A stretch of DNA of 36,244 nt from Gelidibacter salicanalis (GTDB lineage Bacteria; Bacteroidota; Bacteroidia; Flavobacteriales; Flavobacteriaceae): positions 42,019 to 78,262 of the forward strand of contig NZ_JAEHJZ010000022.1 of assembly GCF_016469035.1 (NCBI RefSeq), in the 5' to 3' direction. Position 1 is the first letter of the stretch. Every line of letters starts with the position of its first letter. The notes below the pieces were generated by a model. That model made no database searches. It was not told the origin of the DNA and was given only the letters and a program-made list of their open reading frames with translations. A program made the position numbers and the translations under genes. This document shows, one piece after another, positions 1 to 10,123 of this stretch.

Positions 1-113
1 TAAGAAATGGACCTTGGATGCTTTACATCAATCTGGTGCATTTGAGAATGATAAACAGGAATGGCATGGGGTGGATAGGGGGTGTCACTCTGTGTTATAC
101 ATACATATGTTGT
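1..113 (+). repeat. Cassette-spacer repeat, copy A (3' part only, cut by window edge)
   Basis: This stretch matches the last ~110 bases of the spacer repeats ending near 1430 and 3760. The shared words include aagaaatggaccttgga, catttgagaa, aaacag and ggcat, followed by a cactctgtgtta-like stretch and the terminal atatgttg. Read in one frame it encodes the same peptide as copy B (KKWTLD, FENDKQ), running on to a stop at 112-114. The gene-side boundary GTTGTAAACC begins at 109. Only the right end is visible because the window starts inside the repeat. Confidence 0.7.
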
Positions 114-177
114 AAACCTCACTCAAAAAATTATCTTATTTCTATGGATTAGTGTTTGTAGCTGGAGAGCATAATAT

Positions 178-504
178 TTAGTGGAAAGATTCTTTATAAA
201 GTCTTTTATTGGATTTTATGTCGTCAATTATAGCTTTACTATCTTCTTTGGTGGAATCTAAAAATATAACACCGTTCGGAGAGAAGCTCTTGTAATCGAG
301 ATTTTTTAAGGAATCTTGAGTAAAATCATCAAAGTATTCAACTATAAAATAAATTCTTTCGATTTCATTGCCATATAGAACAGAATAAAAAACACATATA
401 CGTTTTTTATACTCAAATGTATCTGGAAAAGGAGTTAGTAAAAATTCTTTCGAGATATAAGTTTTCTTTAATCCTGTGATTTCAATATTATTTCCTTGTG
501 GCAT
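178..504 (-). CDS. Hypothetical protein, 108 aa
   Basis: I do not recognise this protein. It is a 108-residue, lysine-rich, soluble-looking product with no signal peptide or membrane segment. Several hydrophobic/aromatic strands (RICVFYSVLY, IERIYFIVEYF) suggest a small alpha/beta fold. It starts at an ATG facing away from the secreted protein at 548 and ends ~60 bases from the spacer boundary at 109. It therefore fills the first cassette on the opposite strand from every other cassette gene. The codon use is AT-rich like its neighbours. The mismatch between the two ends of this cassette suggests that two cassettes have fused, this gene belonging to the first. It may be real, but support is only an intact reading frame and sensible composition. 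Confidence 0.5.
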   Translation of the reverse strand: MPQGNNIEITGLKKTYISKEFLLTPFPDTFEYKKRICVFYSVLYGNEIERIYFIVEYFDDFTQDSLKNLDYKSFSPNGVIFLDSTKEDSKAIIDDIKSNKRLYKESFH

Positions 505-547
505 AGTGAAGATTTTATACTAAATTAAACAATTAAAAACCAACATT

Positions 548-961
548 ATGAAAAACATTTTAATGACAGTATTATTTTTATTGCCTCTTTTTGCTATTTC
601 ACAAAATGTAAAAGCAACAATGGAGGGCGGAAGACAAGTAATCCTAAAATCAGACAATACTTGGGAATATGCGAAAATGGAACACAATAAAGAGAATTCA
701 TGTGTCGTAGAAAACGGATTCAAAGAACCAAAATGGAATACAAGTTCAACTTGGAAAAGGATGGGTACAAGAGTCGATGATTTAAAAACACACATTTCTG
801 TTGATATGGGAGTTGACGAAAAAGATATTACACTTCTATCACTTTCTGAACAACTTGGAAACGGAGTTTATGTACTCTGCGTAAAAGGAACTAAAATGAA
901 ATACAGAAGAACGGGTTCTGTTTTTAGAAAAGATGGAGAAGACGTATTAAAAATGAACTGA
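548..961 (+). CDS. Secreted DUF3157-like protein, 137 aa
   Basis: Residues 1-19 form a clear Sec signal peptide (MKNILM, hydrophobic core LFLLPLFA, cleavage after ISQ), so the product is exported. The mature N-terminus carries the pattern A-T-M-E-x-G-R-x-V-I-L-K-S-D-x-T-W-E-Y, which I associate with the short DUF3157-type periplasmic proteins of Bacteroidota, whose function is unknown. The rest (about residues 50-137) contains a conserved-looking 'VYVLCVKGTKMKYRRTG' segment and two cysteines (C52, C111). The ATG at 548 gives the signal peptide directly. The gene is alone in its cassette and ends ~35 bases before the next spacer repeat. Family assignment is from the motif only. Confidence 0.75.
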   Translation: MKNILMTVLFLLPLFAISQNVKATMEGGRQVILKSDNTWEYAKMEHNKENSCVVENGFKEPKWNTSSTWKRMGTRVDDLKTHISVDMGVDEKDITLLSLSEQLGNGVYVLCVKGTKMKYRRTGSVFRKDGEDVLKMN

Positions 962-995
962 TTAGAAGAACATAAATAGAATAAACACTGCTCAC

Positions 996-1429
996 AATAA
1001 CTAAGAATTCGGCTCGCCGATTACTCCCTACGGTCATGAGTAAGTTGCCCAGAGCTGCATATGGTATTGACGAATCCGGTTGATTTGCCGTCTATGGGTA
1101 AAACGTTGTGTTAAGGGGAGGGAATTTGGTTGTTGTGCTATTTTGGGCGGCCAAGTAGTATAGAACCCTCTTGTTCTATAACGTGTTAAGTGACTTTGCT
1201 TGTGGTTTGAATTAAGGATGCCTGGTTTTTGCCGTTTAGTTTTAATGTTGGGCTTATTTGGCCCCCAATTAGTTGGGAGTGCTATTTCAAATTTATACAT
1301 TTGAGATATGAACTATAAGAAATGGACCTTGGATTCTTTACAGAAATCGGGTACATTTGAGAACGACAAACAGAAATGGCATGTGGTAGATAGGTAATAT
1401 ATATGGCACTCTGTGTTAAATACAGATAT
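996..1429 (+). repeat. Cassette-spacer repeat, copy B (full length, ~435 bp)
   Basis: This spacer begins with aataactaagaattcggctcgccg right after the DUF3157-like gene and ends at atatgttgg before the next gene. It is closely matched along nearly its whole length by copy D (3332-3759), by the first ~160 bases of copy C (2101-2270) and by the last ~110 bases of copy A. Internal hallmarks are ttgccgtctatgggtaaaacgtt, a hairpin with stem TATAGAAC/GTTCTATA (1159-1166 with 1173-1180), and tttttgccgtttagtttta. The corresponding stem in copy D is TATAGAAC/GTTTTATA, so pairing is kept through a G-U. It carries no convincing long gene. A minus-strand reading frame across it is a chance opening in a repeat. 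Confidence 0.8.
1308..1397 (+). other. Short conserved reading frame inside spacer repeat (29 codons)
   Basis: The frame starts at ATG 1308 and reads MNYKKWTLDSLQ...FENDKQKWHVVDR before a TAA at 1395. Copy A keeps the same frame with mostly conservative changes (KKWTLDALHQSGAF, ENDKQEWHGVDR). Copy D has a stop after MNYKK. The pattern suggests the degraded N-terminus of a once longer gene that became part of the spacer, rather than an active microprotein. I do not recognise the family. Confidence 0.3.
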
Positions 1430-2108
1430 GTTGGCTGTAAGCTAAAAAACCGAGTATTATGTCAATGACTATTATAGCTTTTATTAATAAAGCAAAAATA
1501 CCGTCTAAATTAGAACTTGAGGCTCAAATTAGAACACTCGGTTATAATTTTAAGTTTAACGAGAACTTTAATCTTTTTGACGAGTTTGGAGGAGATTGTG
1601 AATTAAATGGGCAGAAAACATTTATTGAAGTTTATTTTATTAAAAAAGAGGAATTAGATGACTTGTCCTCATTAGATGAAGATTTAGAAAGTTATGATTC
1701 TGCATTTTCATTTATTTGGGGAGCTGACTCTATTGCTGGTGCTTGCATTTCAATTATTTCAGTAGCATTAATAGATTTGTGCAACTCCAAAATACTTTTT
1801 GAGGATTTTGAAGTTTGGTATGACCGAGAAAAACTTTTGAATGAAATCCCCATGTTTTTAGAAGAAAAGAACACAAGTCTTAGGAAAGTAAAAAAAATAA
1901 AATTACCAGTCGATAAAAAAAATAAAATTGAAAAAATAACAAACATAATTATTTGGAGCCTACTGGTTATCACTACCATTTTAATGAATCGAAAAATAAT
2001 ATCTTGGCACATTCCATCATTAGTCTTGGCTTTTATACTTATTAAAAGTATAATTGAGACTAATAAAAAATGATATAAAATGGAATTGTAATGCCTACAG
2101 CCAATAAC
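1430..2108 (+). mobile_element. Putative gene cassette 2 with self-complementary ends
   Basis: The segment begins with GTTGGCTGTAAGC (1430-1442), and just after its single gene comes GCCTACAGCCAATAAC (2093-2108). The tag GCxTACAGCCAA is the reverse complement of the start at 11 of 12 positions, while neighbouring cassettes carry different tags. In integron cassettes the 5' end of a cassette (after the GTT cut) pairs with the R'' box at the start of its own attC. This pairing of cassette-specific ends is the same geometry. No integrase gene is visible in the window. Confidence 0.55.
1459..2073 (+). CDS. Hypothetical membrane-anchored protein, 204 aa
   Basis: I do not recognise the family. Residues ~1-150 look soluble and acidic (DDLSSLDEDLESYDSAF), with one hydrophobic stretch near residues 90-107 (GACISIISVALIDLC). 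A lysine-rich linker (RKVKKIKLPVDKKNK) leads to two short C-terminal membrane helices at about 160-176 (NIIIWSLLVITTILM) and 184-198 (IPSLVLAFILIKSI). The arrangement suggests a cytoplasmic domain tethered to the inner membrane by a C-terminal hairpin. It is the only gene of its cassette and starts at ATG 1459, 17 bases after the left boundary tag, so it is presumably expressed from a promoter in the upstream spacer. Confidence 0.65.
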   Translation: MSMTIIAFINKAKIPSKLELEAQIRTLGYNFKFNENFNLFDEFGGDCELNGQKTFIEVYFIKKEELDDLSSLDEDLESYDSAFSFIWGADSIAGACISIISVALIDLCNSKILFEDFEVWYDREKLLNEIPMFLEEKNTSLRKVKKIKLPVDKKNKIEKITNIIIWSLLVITTILMNRKIISWHIPSLVLAFILIKSIIETNKK

Positions 2109-2270
2109 TAAGAATTCGGCTCGCCGCACCTGTCCCGCCTTAGCGGGGTAGGCCAGAGATGCATACTGTGTTAACGAATCTGGTTGGTTTGCCGTGTATG
2201 GGTAAAACGTTGGGTCAAGGTAAGGGTTTTTGGAAGTTGTGCTGTGATTGATTTGGTCAAGTGTGTACAT
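2101..2270 (+). repeat. Cassette-spacer repeat, copy C (5' part only)
   Basis: The first ~160 bases match copies B and D (ccaataactaagaattcggc, gccagag, ttgccgt, tatgggtaaaacgttgggtc). The remainder up to the next cassette boundary at 2426 is unrelated to them apart from the last ~15 bases (tatacatgtgttgg). The insert ctgtcccgccttagcggg (2130-2147) adds a small GC-rich hairpin absent from copy D. This copy is therefore a chimera of a shared left half and a different right half. Confidence 0.7.
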
Positions 2271-2278
2271 GCGTAGTG

Positions 2279-2304
2279 GTTACTTTTGGGAAAGTAACTT
2301 TTTT
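2279..2304 (+). terminator. Intrinsic terminator in spacer C
   Basis: A perfect 8-bp stem GTTACTTT/AAAGTAAC (2279-2286 with 2291-2298) with loop TGGG is followed directly by six T residues (2299-2304). It would end transcription coming from the cassette-2 gene on the plus strand and separate it from the cassette-3 gene. Confidence 0.75.
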
Positions 2305-2425
2305 CATTTTGCTGGCATCATAAAATAAAAAGAGCTTTGGTTAAATTGTATCCTGTCCTTAAAATTAATATGTTTGATAGGAACATATAATGAATATTGG
2401 CGCAACTGTATGCGTGTATACATGT

Positions 2426-3338
2426 GTTGGCAGTAATTAAAAGAAATGACGAAAACGAAAAAAAGCTATTGTTTAAGATGTGATTTTAAGACAAATCATA
2501 ACATTTTAGATAAACACGGAATTAGAAGTGACAATGAAGATTATGATTATGCTATAGATTATATGATTGTTCAATGTCTTGGTTGTGAAAGAATATCTTT
2601 CAGAGAAGAATTTATAGACATTGAATCTGCATATCCTAACGAAAATGGAGAATGGATACCTGAAATAACTGTCGAACTTTATCCAAAAAAATTAAGGGCT
2701 AAAAGAAAACTCGAAAGCACTCACATTCTACCAGATAGAATAAAACTCGTTTACGAAGAATCAATTAAAGCTTACAATGCAGATTGCTTTATACTTACAG
2801 GAGTTGCCTTCAGAGCAATAATAGAAGCAATATGTCTTGAAAAAGAAATTCCTGGTCGAAATCTTGAGAAGAAAATCAATGCTCTTGTTAGGAATAAATT
2901 AATAACAGAAAAAGAATCTAAAAGACTTCATTCAATACGCTTCATAGGAAATGATTCTGTTCACGAAATGAAAGCACCAAGGGAAGAAAGTTTAAAAATT
3001 GTTCTCAATATCATCGAACACTTATTGAACAATCTTTACTTAATTGATTATAATAGTCAGAATCATTTAGAGACTGTGATTGACCAATTTGGAGAATTTA
3101 CAGAATTGTTAAGCTATACTCTGCCAAAATTTGAAAAAGGGGAGGAAATACCAATAGCAAAAATTTTAGGAAAAAAAGTAAGAAGATTAAATGGTAGATT
3201 AAGTGATTTTGAAACAGAACTAATTTCGAAAATCGGAACTAACGAATACAATTTATTAGAAGTAGGTAAAATCGATACATATGGAGAAAGCACAAGTCAA
3301 GTTCAACATTTCGTAATAAAATAACTACTGCCAATAAC
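2426..3338 (+). mobile_element. Putative gene cassette 3 with self-complementary ends
   Basis: The left end GTTGGCAGTAATT (2426-2438) is the reverse complement, at 11 of 12 positions, of the sequence AACTACTGCCAA that follows the gene (3323-3334, continuing as taac to 3338). The tag differs from those of cassettes 2 and 4, so the match is not just a shared spacer sequence. One gene (2446-3324) occupies the cassette completely. Confidence 0.55.
2446..3324 (+). CDS. DUF4145-type protein with N-terminal zinc-ribbon-like cysteines, 292 aa
   Basis: The N-terminus has paired cysteines, C9-L-R-C12 and C45-L-G-C48, as in a small zinc ribbon. The middle (about residues 80-200) has the helical pattern of the DUF4145 family, including 'LVYEESIKAYNAD', 'GVAFRAIIEAIC', 'LEKKINAL' and 'IRFIGNDSVHE'. 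That family belongs to the HEPN-like helical superfamily and often occurs in defence and restriction contexts. The C-terminal ~80 residues are unassigned. It might be an RNase-like effector or a structural partner; the R-x4-6-H motif typical of catalytic HEPN proteins is not clearly present, so activity is uncertain. It is a lone cassette gene with its own promoter presumably in spacer C, downstream of the terminator at 2279. Confidence 0.75.
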   Translation: MTKTKKSYCLRCDFKTNHNILDKHGIRSDNEDYDYAIDYMIVQCLGCERISFREEFIDIESAYPNENGEWIPEITVELYPKKLRAKRKLESTHILPDRIKLVYEESIKAYNADCFILTGVAFRAIIEAICLEKEIPGRNLEKKINALVRNKLITEKESKRLHSIRFIGNDSVHEMKAPREESLKIVLNIIEHLLNNLYLIDYNSQNHLETVIDQFGEFTELLSYTLPKFEKGEEIPIAKILGKKVRRLNGRLSDFETELISKIGTNEYNLLEVGKIDTYGESTSQVQHFVIK

Positions 3339-3759
3339 TAAGAATTCGGCTCGCCGATGGGCCAGAGCTGAATATTGTGTTGACGCATGCGGTTGCTTTG
3401 CCGTCTATGGGTAAAACGTTGGGTCAAGGTAAGGATATTTGGAAGTTGTGCTGTTTTTGGGTGGCCAAATGGTATAGAACCCTCTTGTTTTATAACTTGT
3501 TAAGTGCTTTGCTTGTGGTTTGAATTTAGGATCCCTGGTTTTTGCCGTTTAGTTTTAAAGTTAGGGCTAATGTAGCGCCCAATAAGTTGGGAGTGCTATT
3601 TTAGATTTCAAATTTATACATTTGAGATATGAACTATAAGAAATAGACCTTGGATGGTTTATATGAATAGGGTACATTTGAGAACGGCAAACAGAAATGG
3701 CATGGGGTATATAGGTGATATATACGTAACTCCTCGTGTCATATGCTATATATACACAT
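3332..3759 (+). repeat. Cassette-spacer repeat, copy D (full length, ~430 bp)
   Basis: This is a near full-length match to copy B, starting caataactaagaattcggc and ending at the boundary before GTTGTATGCC. The TATAGAAC stem, the gccgtttagttttaa word and the aagaaatagacc segment are all present, but the short conserved reading frame is stopped after five codons. A second ctcggctcgctc word follows at 3781-3792, just before the next gene. Confidence 0.8.
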
Positions 3760-5367
3760 GTTGTATGCCATTTAAAAAAACTCGGCTCGCTCAAAAAGAA
3801 CAAATTATGAAAGGAATTGGACTATTACTATTTTTATGCTTATCCACAAATATTTTTGGGCAGTTTTCAAATGAAACCGTATTTAATGATGCTTTTGATA
3901 GACTTAATACGGAAAAATATAATGAAGCCTTAACATTATTTAATTCCTTAATAACTAAAGACCCAAATTGTGCGGACTGCTATTATGGTAGAGCCAAAAC
4001 AAATTATTTTTTAAAAAAATATAAATCCGCAATTATAGACTGCGAAAAATCATTAATAGGAACTAAAGATTTACAAGCAAACTATAGTCTTTTGGGAGAT
4101 ATTAAATACAAAACAAATGATTATGCTGGTTCTGTGGCTGCTTATGAAAAAGCACTTTCAATTCAAAAAGAAGAAAATGACAATAGAACTGATGGAAAAG
4201 AAATTTTAATCGAGACTAAATATTATGAGATTTCAAAATTGAAAAGTGAAGCGATTAAAAACAATAGACCACAACTTGGCAACTTCAATTTAAATATATC
4301 TTTCTTTGATAAAGTCATAACCCAAAAACTAACAGTAGATGATTTTTACAGGCATATTTATGATTATTTAGAAAGTTGGGAAAGCAAAAAATATGAGGAA
4401 TTCAATGAACTAACTGGAGAACACGATTTATTGGTAAACTCACCCGAAATTTTACTTAACTATAAAGGAAGTAGAATCTATCTTACCTTGAAAAGTTTAA
4501 ATGACGACACCAATGCAATCTATTATATTCAAGTTGGATTGAATTGCAAATGTGAATGGTTTAACATTAAAAATGAAGCAACTACAAATGGATATAAGCA
4601 ATATGAATATTCTGATAATCCAGATAATCGGAACTCAATGTTTGGCGGATTGGACATTAAATATAAAAAAGGCAATAAAACTCTAATTTATAACAAGTTT
4701 CACTCGAAAGTCTATTCAGATTTCTCATTAAGCCAAGAATTTCCCAAACCTAAAAAACCAACCAAGTCAGACGAATATTTACAATTAGCAAAAGTAAAAT
4801 ACAAATCAAGTAAAGTTATGGAAGCAATGGAAAATGTGAATAAAGCAATAGAGTTGGATAAAAACAATTCTGACGCTTATTTCTTTAAAGGACTTATTTA
4901 CTTTGACAATATAGAAGGAAATAAAGAATTTAGTGAAGGCTCACAAACTTGGGCAACTATGGATGAGTTTAATAAAGCTATTTCAATTAACTCAAAAAAT
5001 CCAGAATATTTTCTAAAAAGAGCAAGTTTATATAATCTAATAAATCAAAAAGAAGATGCGATTTTAGATTTACAAAAAGTTTCTGAACTTCAACCTACAA
5101 ACTCACAAACTTTAAGAGAATTGGCTAATATCTTAATAGATTCAGAAGAATATTCAAACGCTTTACAAGTACTTGACACCTTAATCATAAAAATTACCGA
5201 CGATGCTCAACTTTTTTTAGAAAGAGCAATGTTAAAAAATAAAATGGGAGATAAAAATGGTGCTTGTAGTGATTATAAAAAAGCAGAAAAATTAGGATTT
5301 AGCAAAAGTGGTAGATTAGATTTAATTGAACTGATTCAAAAATGTCGGTAAAAAAACGGCATACAAC
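3760..5367 (+). mobile_element. Putative gene cassette 4 with perfectly self-complementary ends
   Basis: The left end GTTGTATGCC (3760-3769) is the exact reverse complement of GGCATACAAC (5358-5367) immediately after the TPR gene. The tag is different from those of cassettes 2 and 3. The right end is also the first arm of the attC-like hairpin described at 5358-5552. Confidence 0.6.
3807..5351 (+). CDS. Secreted/periplasmic tetratricopeptide-repeat protein, 514 aa
   Basis: The start chosen is ATG 3807. It gives a good Sec signal peptide (MKGIGLLLFLCL, cleavage after IFGQ), whereas the upstream in-frame extension runs through the spacer repeat. Mature residues ~25-130 contain TPR units (EKYNEALTLFNSLITKDPN, CADCYYGRAKTNYFLKKYK, DYAGSVAAYEKAL). 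Residues ~160-320 form a non-TPR insert with several cysteines. Residues ~325-514 return to TPR units (MEAMENVNKAIELDKNN, DAYFFKGLIYF, EDAILDLQKVSELQP, MGDKNGACSDYKKAEKLGF). TPR arrays mediate protein-protein contacts in the periplasm or at the outer membrane, and no enzymatic motif is visible. It is the single gene of cassette 4. The protein class is certain, the function is not known. Confidence 0.85.
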   Translation: MKGIGLLLFLCLSTNIFGQFSNETVFNDAFDRLNTEKYNEALTLFNSLITKDPNCADCYYGRAKTNYFLKKYKSAIIDCEKSLIGTKDLQANYSLLGDIKYKTNDYAGSVAAYEKALSIQKEENDNRTDGKEILIETKYYEISKLKSEAIKNNRPQLGNFNLNISFFDKVITQKLTVDDFYRHIYDYLESWESKKYEEFNELTGEHDLLVNSPEILLNYKGSRIYLTLKSLNDDTNAIYYIQVGLNCKCEWFNIKNEATTNGYKQYEYSDNPDNRNSMFGGLDIKYKKGNKTLIYNKFHSKVYSDFSLSQEFPKPKKPTKSDEYLQLAKVKYKSSKVMEAMENVNKAIELDKNNSDAYFFKGLIYFDNIEGNKEFSEGSQTWATMDEFNKAISINSKNPEYFLKRASLYNLINQKEDAILDLQKVSELQPTNSQTLRELANILIDSEEYSNALQVLDTLIIKITDDAQLFLERAMLKNKMGDKNGACSDYKKAEKLGFSKSGRLDLIELIQKCR

Positions 5368-5552
5368 AGCTGTATAAAAAAAATAGGGCAAGTCAGTGCT
5401 AAACCCAATGGTTCAGGCATATTTGCGAAGTCGCCAAATCTTTTGATTTGGCTTTTAGAAAAATAATATAAAACAAAATGCAAAAGATTTGGCTTGTGGA
5501 TAATCCGAAAATTTATTGATTATTTACAGCCCTACTTCTTTTATACTAAACG
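5358..5552 (+). repeat. attC-like recombination-site candidate (long hairpin, ~195 bp)
   Basis: The outer arms GTATAAAAAAAATAGGGC (5372-5389) and GCCCTACTTCTTTTATAC (5529-5546) are complementary at 16 of 18 positions. Inside lies a perfect 8-bp stem GCCAAATC/GATTTGGC with loop TTTT (5433-5452). The element starts at the R''-like box ATACAAC and ends at AAACGTTGGCG, so a GTT boundary opens the next segment. This is the layout of an integron attC site, though longer than most. The sequence style is common between genes of many Bacteroidota, in my recollection. Recombination activity is inferred. Confidence 0.55.
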
Positions 5553-5667
5553 TTGGCGTTCATTGTAAAAAGACAACCGATGCACATTGGTATGTCGCAC
5601 ATTCGACGAGCAACCAAAACCTACAAAAGAGCCAAATTTAAGCCAAAACACATAGAATATTGACAAT

Positions 5668-6321
5668 ATGGATGAAAATGAAAAAATAAGAATTTACAAA
5701 GATAGATTAAGAATATTCTTGATACTCTATGTCTTTAGTGAGCCTTATTCTGATTTAAATTTTCCTAATTTAAAAAGGATTTTCAAAAGTGAACAGCGTA
5801 TTCAGAAAATTGACTTTTTATTAAGAAATCCTGATTACTTATCATTTGAATTAATAAATATTGCGAAAGGTGACTTGTCAAAACAATTGGAGATTAAGAA
5901 AATTGTCAAAGATATTTTTGAAAATAAGGAGCCTGTTATCAGACGATTAGAAATGGAAAGATTCTTTTTTGGAGCATATGAGGATATCGATAATGTAATT
6001 GCTTTTTTGAAAAGTGTAGATTTCATTGATTTCTCAAGTAAAAAAAGTATCGACCTGAAAACAATTGAAAAAAAATATTTCATTACACAATATGCAATAG
6101 ATAAGTTTGAAAGCGCAATAAAGTCATTACCTGCATTAAATTGGTATGTTCAAAGATGTGGTTTAATCAAAAATTACTTTGGAGATTCATCAGGAAGTCA
6201 ATTAAGAATATCTCAATATCAAATTGATGAATATAAAAACACAACTTACAAAGAGTATATAGGAGGAATCCAGGAGAATGTTAATACAGAATTCTTTAAC
6301 CTTTATCTAGAGAAATTATGA
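5668..6321 (+). CDS. Small middle component of a putative ABC-three-component defence system, 217 aa
   Basis: This is a soluble, largely helical protein with no catalytic motif that I can see. Its role is inferred from position. It overlaps the start of an SMC/Rad50-like ATPase by four bases (ATGA), and that gene abuts a nuclease-like gene, giving the small-protein/ATPase/effector trio of ABC-3C systems, of which Lamassu is a member. In such systems the small 'middle component' bridges ATPase and effector. The hydrophobic N-terminal helix (RLRIFLILYVFSEPY) and the central 'MERFFFGAYEDIDNVIAFLKSVDFI' region (split here by sense only) look winged-helix-like. Start ATG 5668 lies ~115 bases after the attC-like element. 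I could not match the sequence itself to a named family. Confidence 0.6.
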   Translation: MDENEKIRIYKDRLRIFLILYVFSEPYSDLNFPNLKRIFKSEQRIQKIDFLLRNPDYLSFELINIAKGDLSKQLEIKKIVKDIFENKEPVIRRLEMERFFFGAYEDIDNVIAFLKSVDFIDFSSKKSIDLKTIEKKYFITQYAIDKFESAIKSLPALNWYVQRCGLIKNYFGDSSGSQLRISQYQIDEYKNTTYKEYIGGIQENVNTEFFNLYLEKL

Positions 6322-8435
6322 ATTTCGATTTTAAAAAATTTACTGATGAATTATACGAAGAGTATAAAGAGCAATTAACCAAATCTGAGGTTGAAGAAAT
6401 ACTTAATCTAAATGATGAATACAGTAGAGATACTCCAATGTCAACAGGTAAAAGACTATTAATTGACAAGGTAACTCTGCTGGGTGAAAAGGGTATCTCA
6501 GAAAATTCAGATTATTCAGGTGCTAAAATTAATTTTTCTTTACCTTTTGAATCAGGTCTCAATATTATTATTGCAGACAATTTAAAAGGAAAATCAAGTA
6601 TTTTCAAAATAATAAAATACGCACTCACTGGAACAAATTCATTAAAGGATAATATTAAAAAGTGGATTAATCATGCTTTTGTGAACTTTAGTATAAATGA
6701 AAAAAAGTATACAGTATTTTTAGACTTGTCGAAATACAGAATTTATGCTGGATTATTCAATGGTTCTTTTAATTCATTAGATGAATTGGAAAATTATTCT
6801 GATGAGGTCGTTTTTGATGCAAGTAGTGAAACTTCCTATCAAGATTTAATAAACGACTTTTTCTTTCAGCAATTCACATATTATTCTTTGAAGTGGACAC
6901 AGAAATCTTCCCAAAAAGACAAGGATGATTTAATTGAGGCTGGAGCTAGTTGGAAAACTTATTTTAAATCTATTTTACTCGAGTCAAAAGATTCCACTAG
7001 CCTAATGTATGGTGACCAAGGGAAAAAAGTTTTTCAAATGCTTTTAGGTCTAAAACTGACTTATCCAATAAACAGATTGACAATAAAAAAAGATTTGCTT
7101 AATTATGAAAAAGCAAAAGAGCAATCTTTTACAGAAAGACAAAAAAAACAGGAAAAACAAAACCTGGAGAAATTTCAGCAGAGACTAACAGATATAAATA
7201 TTGAGTTGAATGAAATTCAAATAATAAGCAAGGAAAAGGTTAATCTAGCACCACTTTACATTGAATATAATTCGCTTCTTGGCTTAATTCAATCAGAGAA
7301 TAAGAAATCAATTGAAATTGAAAATGTAAAGCAATTAAAGAACAAAGAATTACATTCAATTAAAACAAAACAACAAACAAATCAATCTGAGATTTTTCGA
7401 TTAAAAAAAGAATTAGAGAAAGCGAAAAAGCAAAGTAATGACTTAAAAGAATTTGTGGATATTGGTATTTTGTTTTCCAACTTGGATATTAAATATTGTC
7501 CTGGCTGTAATCATGATGTTTCAGAAATACAAAAACAATCTAGGTTGCATGAGCATAAATGCTCATTGTGCAACGAATCAACTATTGGTAATGAAGATGA
7601 TGTTGATATTGATGTATTTAAAGATAAGATTGAAAATTTAAAAATCACTATTAAAAATTTAGAGTCGGAAATATGTACGCTTTCAGAACAAAATGACATT
7701 TTTCAGGAAAAATTCAATTCTATTTATTCTGATATTGTCAGTTCCGAAAAGATGTTTGATGGGATTCAAGATGTATCTTCTTTATCTGATGAACTTCAAG
7801 AATTAGAAAAAATAATAAATTCCGAAAAGAGTAAAGTAAATCCTTCCGATTCGAGAAAAGAAGAACTTGTGTCAGAAAAGGCTGTGTTAAATTTTCAACT
7901 ACAAGAAATAACATCTCAAGAAATAATTCGAGGCTCAAATTATGCAACAAAAATCAATCTTCTAGATTCAGCAATTGAAAAGTTATCTGAACGAAGATTT
8001 GAATTAGGAACAAAAGTTTTAGATAGACTTTCGGAATTAATGAAAAATGAGATACATGATTTTGGATTAACTTCAATTTCAGAAGTTTTGATTAAGGAAA
8101 ATTTCGAAATTTACTACAAACAGGATAATGAGTATGTGACCTTTGAAAATATAGCAGAGGGTGAGCAGTTAAGGGCGAAAATAGCATTTTATTTGAGTCT
8201 AATCCAACTTGATATCGAGTTTAATTTTGGCAGACATACACGGTTATTAATAATTGATAGTCCTGGAAAAGAGGAAGCTGATTTAAAATATCTAGAAGGT
8301 TTAGCCCGTGTTTTACAAAGCATAGAATCAAGATATGGAGATAAATTGCAAATATTAATTGGAACAGCTGAAAGAAAATTATCAGGTGTTTTAAAAAATC
8401 AAAAAGAATTTGCTGTCGATGAATATGTATTCTAA
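6318..8435 (+). CDS. SMC/Rad50-like ATPase with four-cysteine coiled-coil apex, 705 aa
   Basis: The ABC-type ATPase core is split over both ends. A Walker A-like loop is at residues 86-94 (ADNLKGKSS; the usual first glycine is replaced by A86). The signature-like AEGEQLRAK is at 613-621 and Walker B LLIIDSPGKEE is at ~643-653, with D647. Between them runs a long charged coiled coil broken near the middle by C394-P-G-C397 and C415-S-L-C418. That is a full four-cysteine zinc-binding unit, rather than the single CxxC hook of Rad50. The protein is much shorter than true SMC proteins, as is usual for defence ATPases of the ABC-3C/Lamassu type, which are thought to sense DNA ends or phage DNA and release an effector. 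It overlaps its upstream neighbour by 4 bases and the downstream gene by 1. Confidence 0.8.
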   Translation: MNFDFKKFTDELYEEYKEQLTKSEVEEILNLNDEYSRDTPMSTGKRLLIDKVTLLGEKGISENSDYSGAKINFSLPFESGLNIIIADNLKGKSSIFKIIKYALTGTNSLKDNIKKWINHAFVNFSINEKKYTVFLDLSKYRIYAGLFNGSFNSLDELENYSDEVVFDASSETSYQDLINDFFFQQFTYYSLKWTQKSSQKDKDDLIEAGASWKTYFKSILLESKDSTSLMYGDQGKKVFQMLLGLKLTYPINRLTIKKDLLNYEKAKEQSFTERQKKQEKQNLEKFQQRLTDINIELNEIQIISKEKVNLAPLYIEYNSLLGLIQSENKKSIEIENVKQLKNKELHSIKTKQQTNQSEIFRLKKELEKAKKQSNDLKEFVDIGILFSNLDIKYCPGCNHDVSEIQKQSRLHEHKCSLCNESTIGNEDDVDIDVFKDKIENLKITIKNLESEICTLSEQNDIFQEKFNSIYSDIVSSEKMFDGIQDVSSLSDELQELEKIINSEKSKVNPSDSRKEELVSEKAVLNFQLQEITSQEIIRGSNYATKINLLDSAIEKLSERRFELGTKVLDRLSELMKNEIHDFGLTSISEVLIKENFEIYYKQDNEYVTFENIAEGEQLRAKIAFYLSLIQLDIEFNFGRHTRLLIIDSPGKEEADLKYLEGLARVLQSIESRYGDKLQILIGTAERKLSGVLKNQKEFAVDEYVF

Positions 8436-10123
8436 TGAATAAAAATTTTGAAATATTAGAATTTAAAACTTTGAGCACTCCTGAGAAAATTAGTTTTCTT
8501 GAGAATGATTTTGTTGGTTCAATAATAAACCTTGAAGAAAAAACTATAAACTCTTCAATGCGTGAAATTATATTAGATGAAAAAGAAAACTCTTTTGTTA
8601 GAAAAATTGGGCTAGAATTATTTACAGACTTGGTGGTATTAGGAAAACTAAAAATAAGACAAGGTTTAAGTTTGCTAATTGATGATTGGATTCCAAGTTC
8701 AGAGATTTTTATAGAGCTCCAACGTTTAAAGGACCTATACTTGTATTATGATGACTCAAATGAAGAAATTGAAATAATTTACCAACAGAAATTAAATGAT
8801 TCAGAAGCAGAATTAGTTTCTGAAAGCTTATTAAATCTGGGACTTATTAATTTCCAAAAAGCATTAACCTCAACGTCCGAGGAGGAATGTTCTAAAGCTT
8901 TAACAATTAGTGAATCCTATTTCATTAAATCATATGAAGAATTAGAAAATCGAATTGACTCTAATTTTTACTTTAAAGTTGTTTCAATTCTTGGTGAAAT
9001 AATAAATAATAGATGGGGTTCTGCAAAAGAGTATATACGTGAGCTTGGGAATATCCTTTTTCAAAGAGAGGTTTTTTCATTTGATTATAAGCTTGAAAAT
9101 TTGCAGTTTAGCTTTTATAAAATACTAACATCTTTGCAAAAACTATGTAATAAACAACCAAATAATTGGCTTGATTATAGGTCAGAACTTGACAATGTTT
9201 ATCTATGTTATTCAGAAATAACTAATTCTACTTTAAAGCAAAGATTGAATGAAAATTCAGTGGCAAGTAGTTTAGGCAATTTTGTTAGTGAAAAAATTTT
9301 CGAACCATATTTTATGATACATTTTAGTTCTGAAATAACAAAACTAAATGTAAGGTTAGGAGAACTCCAACAGGGTACGGAGGAACATAATTTTCTCTCA
9401 TATCTTAAATCAGTTATTGAGAATAACAATAAAAAAAAAGTTGAATTAGATAGTCTTGGTAGGAGGTTCAAAAATTTATTCCCAACTCATAACCAAGTAA
9501 TTATTGAGCAATTAGTTAATCAAATAGTTAAACCTTCTGATTGTTTAAAGGCTTTTGAAACACTTACTAATAAATCAAATAGTGAGCTAGTTGATTCACT
9601 AATTTTTGCAAGTGCAAAAATGCAAGGTGATAAAAAATACTGGGCAAACAATTCTGATGAGAATGAAAGGAACAAGTATTTAGCAAATTTAGTTGAAGCA
9701 AGGGGCTTCTCAATTAAGGACCAAACTCAATGGAGTACATCAAATGAAGGTAAAAAAAGTGGAGAAATTGATATATTTATAACAGAAAAAGATGGTAGTC
9801 CTAAATCAATTATTGAAGCCTTAATTCTTGACTCATTAAAAACGGATTATATAATTCTTCATCTCGATAAACTATTTAGATATGATACAACTGGATTAGA
9901 AAACAATTATATAATAACATATTCTACTGCGAAGGACTTTGCTAAACTCTGGAATAAATACAAAGCCTTTATTTCAAAACACGTATACAATTATAAATTT
10001 ATTGATTATGAAGAGATAAATGATTACAATTTTACTGACATAAAAATTGGAGTAGCAAAACATTTGAGAAATGGAAAGAAAATTAAATTGTATCACATAA
10101 TGATAAATCTAAGTGAACGATAG
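8435..10123 (+). CDS. Putative effector with C-terminal restriction-endonuclease-like domain, 562 aa
   Basis: Residues 1-400 are helical and unrecognised. The C-terminal region looks like a PD-(D/E)xK nuclease fold: 'NERNKYLANLVEARGF' with E421, then 'DQTQWSTSNEGKKSGEIDIFI' elements with G443-E-I-D446, then I-I-E461-A-L463. D446 and E461 fit the two acidic positions, but the usual lysine of ExK is leucine (EAL), so the lysine may come from elsewhere or the enzyme may work differently. The start ATG 8435 overlaps the last base of the ATPase stop codon, so the two are co-translated. As third gene of an ABC-3C-like operon it is the likely DNA-degrading effector. It could instead be a nuclease-fold sensor. 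Confidence 0.65.
   Translation: MNKNFEILEFKTLSTPEKISFLENDFVGSIINLEEKTINSSMREIILDEKENSFVRKIGLELFTDLVVLGKLKIRQGLSLLIDDWIPSSEIFIELQRLKDLYLYYDDSNEEIEIIYQQKLNDSEAELVSESLLNLGLINFQKALTSTSEEECSKALTISESYFIKSYEELENRIDSNFYFKVVSILGEIINNRWGSAKEYIRELGNILFQREVFSFDYKLENLQFSFYKILTSLQKLCNKQPNNWLDYRSELDNVYLCYSEITNSTLKQRLNENSVASSLGNFVSEKIFEPYFMIHFSSEITKLNVRLGELQQGTEEHNFLSYLKSVIENNNKKKVELDSLGRRFKNLFPTHNQVIIEQLVNQIVKPSDCLKAFETLTNKSNSELVDSLIFASAKMQGDKKYWANNSDENERNKYLANLVEARGFSIKDQTQWSTSNEGKKSGEIDIFITEKDGSPKSIIEALILDSLKTDYIILHLDKLFRYDTTGLENNYIITYSTAKDFAKLWNKYKAFISKHVYNYKFIDYEEINDYNFTDIKIGVAKHLRNGKKIKLYHIMINLSER

Follow-up and report, generated by a model that had tools for sequence, protein, structure and literature searches.

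What system strings single genes together between long spacers and gives each gene its own pair of complementary ends? The question is raised by DNA of 36,244 nucleotides from Gelidibacter salicanalis (NZ_JAEHJZ010000022.1, positions 42,019 to 78,262 of the forward strand; the whole stretch is called the window here). Near its left end, three segments each open with GTT plus a private tag and close with the reverse complement of that tag. The original prediction for this DNA suggested a distant type of integron or another recombinase system that moves single genes, and it staked this idea on two expectations: that the tags of other segments pair less well than self-pairs, and that gene content between the sites varies. 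Both are borne out below, and the idea is supported. Very probably, the array consists of cassettes of an integron-like system whose tyrosine recombinase is not IntI. This assignment, made by sequence comparison, rests on the order recombinase, GTT, cassette, site, cassette, which is found in G. salicanalis itself and in its relatives.

The paired private tags predicted for three successive segments are exact (cassettes 1 to 3 in Table 1): over the 7 positions preceding the AAC or AAT of the complement, every cassette matches at 7 of 7. The spacers, counted from the last base of a complement up to the GTT that follows, measure 320, 424 and 184 bp, near the predicted range of 195 to 435 bp. The core AACTAAGAATTCGGCTCGCCG is common to the spacers at 999-1429, 2106-2425 and 3336-3759. 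It occurs at 43 places in the genome (at most 3 mismatches), compared with 0 for a reversed control pattern.

Private pairing also holds across the genome. Profile hidden Markov models (HMMs) for both spacer ends were applied to 20 stretches, which contain 29 clean, uninterrupted right-end/left-end pairs. The summed self-pair match is 225, and the best of 20,000 permutations is 204, so that 0 of 20,000 reach the observed value. Scores of at least 8 of 11 are found in 18 of the 29 self pairs versus 187 of 2,094 non-self pairs. The remaining 11 self pairs score 5 to 7 of 11 and are not distinct from background; some of these low-scoring pairs probably end in another site type.

The genome of G. 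salicanalis contains 30 phage-integrase-type matches. The candidate integrase of the cassette system is Y397, a tyrosine recombinase of 397 amino acids (L027:1440-2633), whose catalytic motifs by inspection are GLRVGE, KGKKDR, HTLRH and LGHSSTKTTEIY. A GTT junction, GTTGTACCCA, lies 59 bp beyond the Y397 stop codon and opens a 2.8-kb cassette that closes with TGGGTACAAC. It is followed by a hairpin site of 117 bp, a 450-bp cassette and a giant site. The first of these cassettes (L027:2731-5475) encodes a 914-amino-acid protein that matches the defence protein Ppl (E 3.6e-19). Y397 is the sole match in its own genome at E<=1e-60, and it is located on contig C662, whereas the window is on C134. 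The earlier statement that no integrase is seen is correct for the array, and the Y397-type gene lies on another contig.

At the same threshold, 80 of the 299 family genomes sampled have a Y397 match, its own genome counted, and with a relative as query there are matches in 63 of 247 genomes of the class, with tags tested in part of these only. Many members of the clade carry an extra N-terminal part of about 100 amino acids (for example, L027:1440-1770). A HARP-like domain was considered for this extension and is not claimed; the six proteins tested gave weak matches (HARP, E 0.11; DUF5710, E 0.0019).

The layout recurs in relatives. An exact tag pair is present in a locus's own downstream sequence at 13 of 18 testable family loci (flanks of 1.48 to 3 kb) versus 23 of 306 cross-pairings, in which the tags of one locus are sought in the sequence of another. 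With flanks cut to 1.49 kb, the counts are 10 of 18 versus 13 of 306, and across the class they are 5 of 15 versus 9 of 210. In both the permutation test and these comparisons between loci, then, the tags of other segments pair less well than a segment's own. Clear junctions occur 26 to 99 bp beyond the recombinase stop codon. As in integrons, an attachment site is located beside the recombinase gene: a paired GTT follows the stop codon by 45 to 99 bp in 14 of the 15 listed loci, and the remaining one (L066) is listed by another GTT and has its clear pair at +26. The array can be traced to a next, also exactly paired cassette in 8 of 17 platforms (9 with the doubtful L086). Of the 14 sites parsed in relatives and in the Y397 platform, 9 measure 115 to 121 bp; a 603-bp site in L086 exceeds all the others and may be spurious. 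In one relative with a one-contig genome, transposase-like sequences (IS1182- and IS110-like, by inspection only) break cassette sites at L080:5315-7000 and 7650-9100. The IS1111-attC elements of true integrons likewise interrupt attC sites.

The same observations raise the possibility that the array is an ordinary integron remnant, that is, a cluster of attC sites lacking an integrase (CALIN) whose cassettes belong to a canonical IntI since lost or encoded elsewhere. Its geometry, tag pairing and hairpin sites are indeed integron-like. Moreover, in a phylum-wide sample of 395 genomes, 105 have an IntI that scores above its cut-off, and reviews, in the portions available, count Bacteroidota among the integron-bearing phyla. 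Against this, no IntI match at E<=1e-60 was obtained in 299 genomes of the family, in a search in which the control genomes also lacked a match, although the same model did match in the phylum sample. Also, the arrays adjoin a different recombinase. The additional domain of IntI, a defining trait of this integrase in the available part of PMC9668308, is absent from all 28 Y- and Z-type (Y/Z) recombinases, in which the KDR and HxLRH motifs are 61 residues apart (28/28), versus 103 in the IntI proteins of the phylum (10/10). The model TIGR02249 scores 187.8 bits compared with a cut-off of 265, and in the search of the genome only 3-181 and 239-315 are matched. A CALIN remnant is therefore improbable.

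In a tree of 46 recombinase rows, 28 of them Y/Z and several on long branches, IntI forms one side of a branch with support 100/100, and 0 of the 28 Y/Z rows fall inside. This tree does not settle the fork at which IntI meets two divergent Y/Z rows and the 26 others. IntI may be the sister of the Y/Z lineage, may derive from among it, or may have converged on the same function separately. The core sites differ as well. Those of integrons have the heptamer RYYYAAC or, on the other strand, GTTRRRY. The present sites keep GTT and mostly AAC, and the bases that follow GTT are often not RRRY (for example, GTTGTGC and GTTGGCA). Because the tests for the additional domain and for the IntI clade both fail, we do not file the system as an integron.

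The integron-like reading is also consistent with the predicted folds of the sites. Sixteen sites were folded, comprising 13 of the 14 parsed sites (the 603-bp one was left out) and 3 from the window, with each cassette end joined to its own start, as in an excised circle. In this circle form, all 16 close 9 or 10 of the 10 positions of an outer R stem, partly by construction because the sites had been found by that pairing. If the tag of the next cassette is used instead, the outer stem falls to at most 1 of 10 in 12 of 16 sites. An inner L stem lies a few unpaired bases away in most, but not all, of the printed folds. The sites are thus predicted to form attC-type hairpins with R'', L'', L' and R' stems, self-complementary within the cassette. 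Fold energies have z scores of -1.3 to -9.2 relative to 12 to 30 dinucleotide shuffles per site, and the window site at 5368..5551 reaches E -36.2 and z -9.2 with an R box of 10/10. Of the two strands, the bottom one gives the more stable fold in 11 of the 16.

The large size of the window spacers can be traced to their composition. As judged from alignments, the giant sites are chimeras in which an IS91-family terminus precedes the final codons, a promoter-like motif and the attachment site of a recombinase gene. The first 155 to 251 nucleotides of the three giant window sites match positions 3-238 of a 2.4-kb element, at 70-87% where the pieces are longer. This element codes for an IS91-family transposase (NF033538, 361 bits) and a recombinase of 306 amino acids, so the left half shares its terminus with an IS91 element. 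The right arm of two of these sites matches the last codons of Y397 and the site downstream of it (80-88% over 85 to 118 nucleotides). That of the third corresponds to the end of a G013-type gene (84% over 69 nucleotides), and a right arm elsewhere in the genome (L011) is 100% identical to the Y397 end over 115 nucleotides. Outside the Y397 gene there are 26 such matches, and 17 of them have a Y397-derived part that starts at one common base. The promoter-like motif TTG-N19..21-TAnnTTTG, which resembles the promoter consensus of Bacteroidota, is present in 30 of 36 right arms (class B, 18 of 23, one being that of the Y397 gene itself; class A, 12 of 13), compared with 266 of 20,000 windows drawn at random from these loci. 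The motif of the class A window site is not solely inherited coding sequence, since its TTG is outside the recombinase-aligned part.

Four full copies of the IS91-type element are present (Table 1). All four start after AAC or AAT and end with GTTC before AAC; the element thus sits right after the R'' box of the sites. A preceding cassette end is visible for three of the copies, and none is visible before the L018 copy because its contig starts there. The 306-amino-acid recombinases were considered as the cassette integrase and rejected. They form a separate clade inside insertion elements and so are treated as guests. On a Myroides plasmid, the annotation places a similar transposase/recombinase pair between catB and tet(X2). 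One IS91/recombinase element is adjoined by a reverse transcriptase of group II intron type with a maturase domain (L036:2463-3056). The LEFT element upstream of Y-type genes has a match in the relatives' loci only at L087, beside IS91-like sequence (by inspection).

With an IS91 terminus in the left part of each giant spacer and full IS91 copies at the same position, the spacers might be only non-autonomous IS91-family elements (miniature inverted-repeat transposable elements, MITEs) between unrelated genes, with the tags arising from target choice. However, pairing is equally exact at sites without IS91 sequence and at the tet(X2) unit described below, and insertion of IS91 leaves the matching tags at both ends of a gene unexplained. 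We regard this proposal as about as doubtful as the CALIN remnant, or slightly more so.

Movement of single units is indicated most clearly by tet(X2). On an Empedobacter brevis plasmid, this gene is flanked by GTTATGTGCC and by GGCACATAAC with a hairpin site, and the tags pair. The same GTT-to-GTT unit of 1,327 bp, with identical border sequences, is found on Empedobacter, Sphingobacterium, Bacteroides xylanisolvens and Myroides plasmids, where the four records have two types of left flank and three of right. A precise exchange unit, as known from integrons, is present in 4 of 5 tet(X)/tet(X2) loci tested in Bacteroidota. The fifth (L144, B. fragilis) is unmatched by the border strings, and its similarity block has the same ends. 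The sequence shared by tet(X3) and tet(X2) starts at GTTA, with none before it.

A search of plasmids with Y397 (E<=1e-40) gave 62 records, of which 49 are from Acinetobacter; no relative was found in phage records at E<=1e-30. In the four records examined that carry tet(X3) or tet(X5), a 221-amino-acid member of the Y397 clade directly precedes that gene. This protein is 53-58% identical to 14 relatives, among the matches listed. The tet(X3) records have an attI-like hairpin and GTT between the 221-amino-acid gene and tet(X3), and an exact tag partner was not found for tet(X3) on the Acinetobacter plasmids examined. Chryseobacterium and Rufibacter plasmids that carry relatives both have an exact pair after the recombinase gene, although the Chryseobacterium one is perhaps due to chance. 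The resistance gene tet(X) seems to travel as one cassette of the integron-like system.

Homologues of the cassette 1 gene (42-50%) occur in three other genera. The first sits in an exactly paired cassette that has a different tag, the second in a cassette whose ends pair at 6 of 7 positions (by inspection), and the third in no cassette. Together with the different neighbours of the tet(X2) unit, this shows that gene content between sites varies. The cassette 2 gene was rejected as proof of mobility, as no cassette context is apparent on inspection around its one named relative (a metagenome-assembled genome of Ignavibacteriae, 68%). A gene judged by inspection to be of efflux type stands at the end of two contigs (L012 and L017), in copies that are 95% identical and have the same end tag and different giant-site subtypes. 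They are not used as proof of mobility because one is truncated upstream; the truncated copy adjoins a gene resembling transaldolase. Inverted complementary ends flanking a gene can form RNA stems, and the ends could in principle serve as terminators or stem-forming ends of transcripts instead of as recombination sites, yet the exchange of GTT-bounded blocks between plasmids of different orders and the adjacency of a recombinase make this hardly credible.

For the integron-like system, a coherent mechanism can be proposed. In the excised circle, a tag and its complement might pair as the outer stem (R box) of a single strand folded into a recombination site, like the attC sites of integrons, and each cassette would consequently keep its own matching pair. 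A Y-type recombinase would recognize the folded site and join at GTT. The giant sites could go back to a fusion between an IS91-family element and the end of a recombinase gene, and they might act as portable modules consisting of a promoter and an attI site. The architecture, the private pairing, the predicted capacity for folding and the exact unit borders can be read from the sequences; the system looks like an integron, a kind of element best known for its antibiotic-resistance genes, and probably works like one.

Several observations weigh against this interpretation. No Y397-type gene was found on the contig of the window at E<=1e-60, so action in trans has to be assumed. Some 20 kb ahead of the window, the contig has a different recombinase gene of phage-integrase type (C134:22361-22825), for which no BLAST match to Y397 was obtained at 1e-8. 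Within the window, no tag partner was found for the segment at 109-998, which may be a cassette that is composite or has decayed; for the junction at 5552, the best partner is 6/7 and none is exact. In both folded giant window sites, the top strand folds better, contrary to integron practice. No exact pair is present in 5 of 18 family loci and in 10 of 15 class-wide loci with enough flank; among the 17 platforms followed, 3 lack a partner and 3 more began from a 6/7 match. The promoter motif is strict in 6, loose in 4 and absent in 8 of 18 recombinase 3' ends, and its count in the right arms is not independent because these arms are related by descent.

Features of the window array and of the full IS91-type elements are listed in Table 1. 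Beyond the last GTT junction is a Lamassu-type operon (window 5668-10123), with profile matches to LmuC, LmuB and LmuA. No Rfam RNA families or tRNA genes were found in the window.

Table 1. Positions of array features in the window and of full IS91-type elements (locus coordinates). ORF, open reading frame; PLM, promoter-like motif; TPR, tetratricopeptide repeat.
Feature	Position	Strand	Remarks
Giant-site right arm, left part upstream of window	1..108	+	Copy of Y397 3' end and attachment-site arm; 79% identity over 68 nt to Y397 3' end (L013:12031-12098); right-end HMM match
Segment with unpaired tag	109..998	+	Opens with GTTGTAAACC; ORFs 178-504(-), 548-961(+)
Giant site, class B	999..1429	+	IS91-family terminus ~999-1249; Y397 3' end and attI-type arm ~1327-1411; PLM (TTG-N20-TAnnTTTG) 1329-1359
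Cassette 1	1430..2105	+	Tag GTTGGCTGTA (1430), complement TACAGCCAAT (2096); ORF 1459-2073 (204 aa); homologues in other genera
Giant site, class A	2106..2425	+	IS91-family terminus ~2105-2261; G013-type recombinase 3' end and arm ~2361-2429; PLM 2346-2376
Cassette 2	2426..3335	+	Tag GTTGGCAGTA (2426), complement TACTGCCAAT (3326); ORF 2446-3324 (292 aa), weak PD-T7-4 profile match (E 8.4e-9)
Giant site, class B	3336..3759	+	IS91-family terminus ~3335-3567; Y397 3' end and attI-type arm 3648-3765; PLM 3650-3680
Cassette 3	3760..5367	+	Tag GTTGTATGCC (3760), complement GGCATACAAC (5358); ORF end 5351, listed start 3654, in-frame ATG at 3807 within cassette; product TPR-like by inspection only
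Short hairpin-type site	5368..5551	+	Arms TGTATAAAAAAAATAGGGC / GCCCTACTTCTTTTATAC
Final GTT junction	5552..5561	+	GTTGGCGTTC; followed by Lamassu-type operon
Full IS91-type element copies	L009:5893-8332, L017:4326-6755, L018:1-2442, L027:6055-8485		

Because integrons are recognized by IntI and its sites, a cassette-shuffling platform in 80 of 299 family and 63 of 247 class genomes, if the reading is right, would have been overlooked by IntI-based searches. For tet(X), it would provide a source and a unit of transfer that can be tested, and it would raise the question of whether the IntI-specific domain is needed for recombining folded sites. On balance, we lean toward a broader view in which Bacteroidota harbour a widespread integron-like system outside IntI, either a separate line or a sister line that predates the additional domain, with captured genes that include tet(X) and with IS91 elements that spread chimeric sites of promoter plus attI. 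This view would explain the recombinase fragment that travels with tet(X3). A sister line would show integrons as they were before the IntI-specific domain.

No title or abstract describing such a system was found in the literature searched, with preprints and most subscription journals outside the search. For Bacteroidetes, the available part of PMC9024848 reports earlier only In0 elements and then one complete integron (Salinibacter). One relative, on a Chryseobacterium plasmid, is labelled "site-specific tyrosine recombinase/integron integrase" by NCBI. The arrangement in which the 221-amino-acid clade member precedes tet(X3) or tet(X5) corresponds to the xerD-tet(X3) module named in a 2020 paper on tet(X) (PMC7494873), whose available text contains none of the words cassette, integron and recombinase. 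The "integron-like" subgroup of simple tyrosine recombinases has the same XerA/IntI-type core, and the available part of PMC8138268 describes no cassette arrays of the present kind. IS91/ISCR elements share one end with the giant sites and include the 2.4-kb element with transposase and 306-amino-acid recombinase, but they account for half of a giant spacer and not for the pairing of tags. The window array resembles a CALIN in that no matching recombinase gene was found on its contig; in contrast to a CALIN, a platform with a recombinase exists in the same genome. Compared with integrons, the recombinase lacks the additional domain and falls outside the IntI clade, the attachment site adjoins the recombinase gene at its 3' end, the R pairing covers about 10 bp of variable bases in place of the GTTRRRY heptamer, and giant chimeric sites occur. 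What the two have in common is a recombinase beside an attachment site, an array of mostly single-gene cassettes, hairpins with R and L stems, private R'/R'' pairing inside each cassette, and exchange bordered by GTT.

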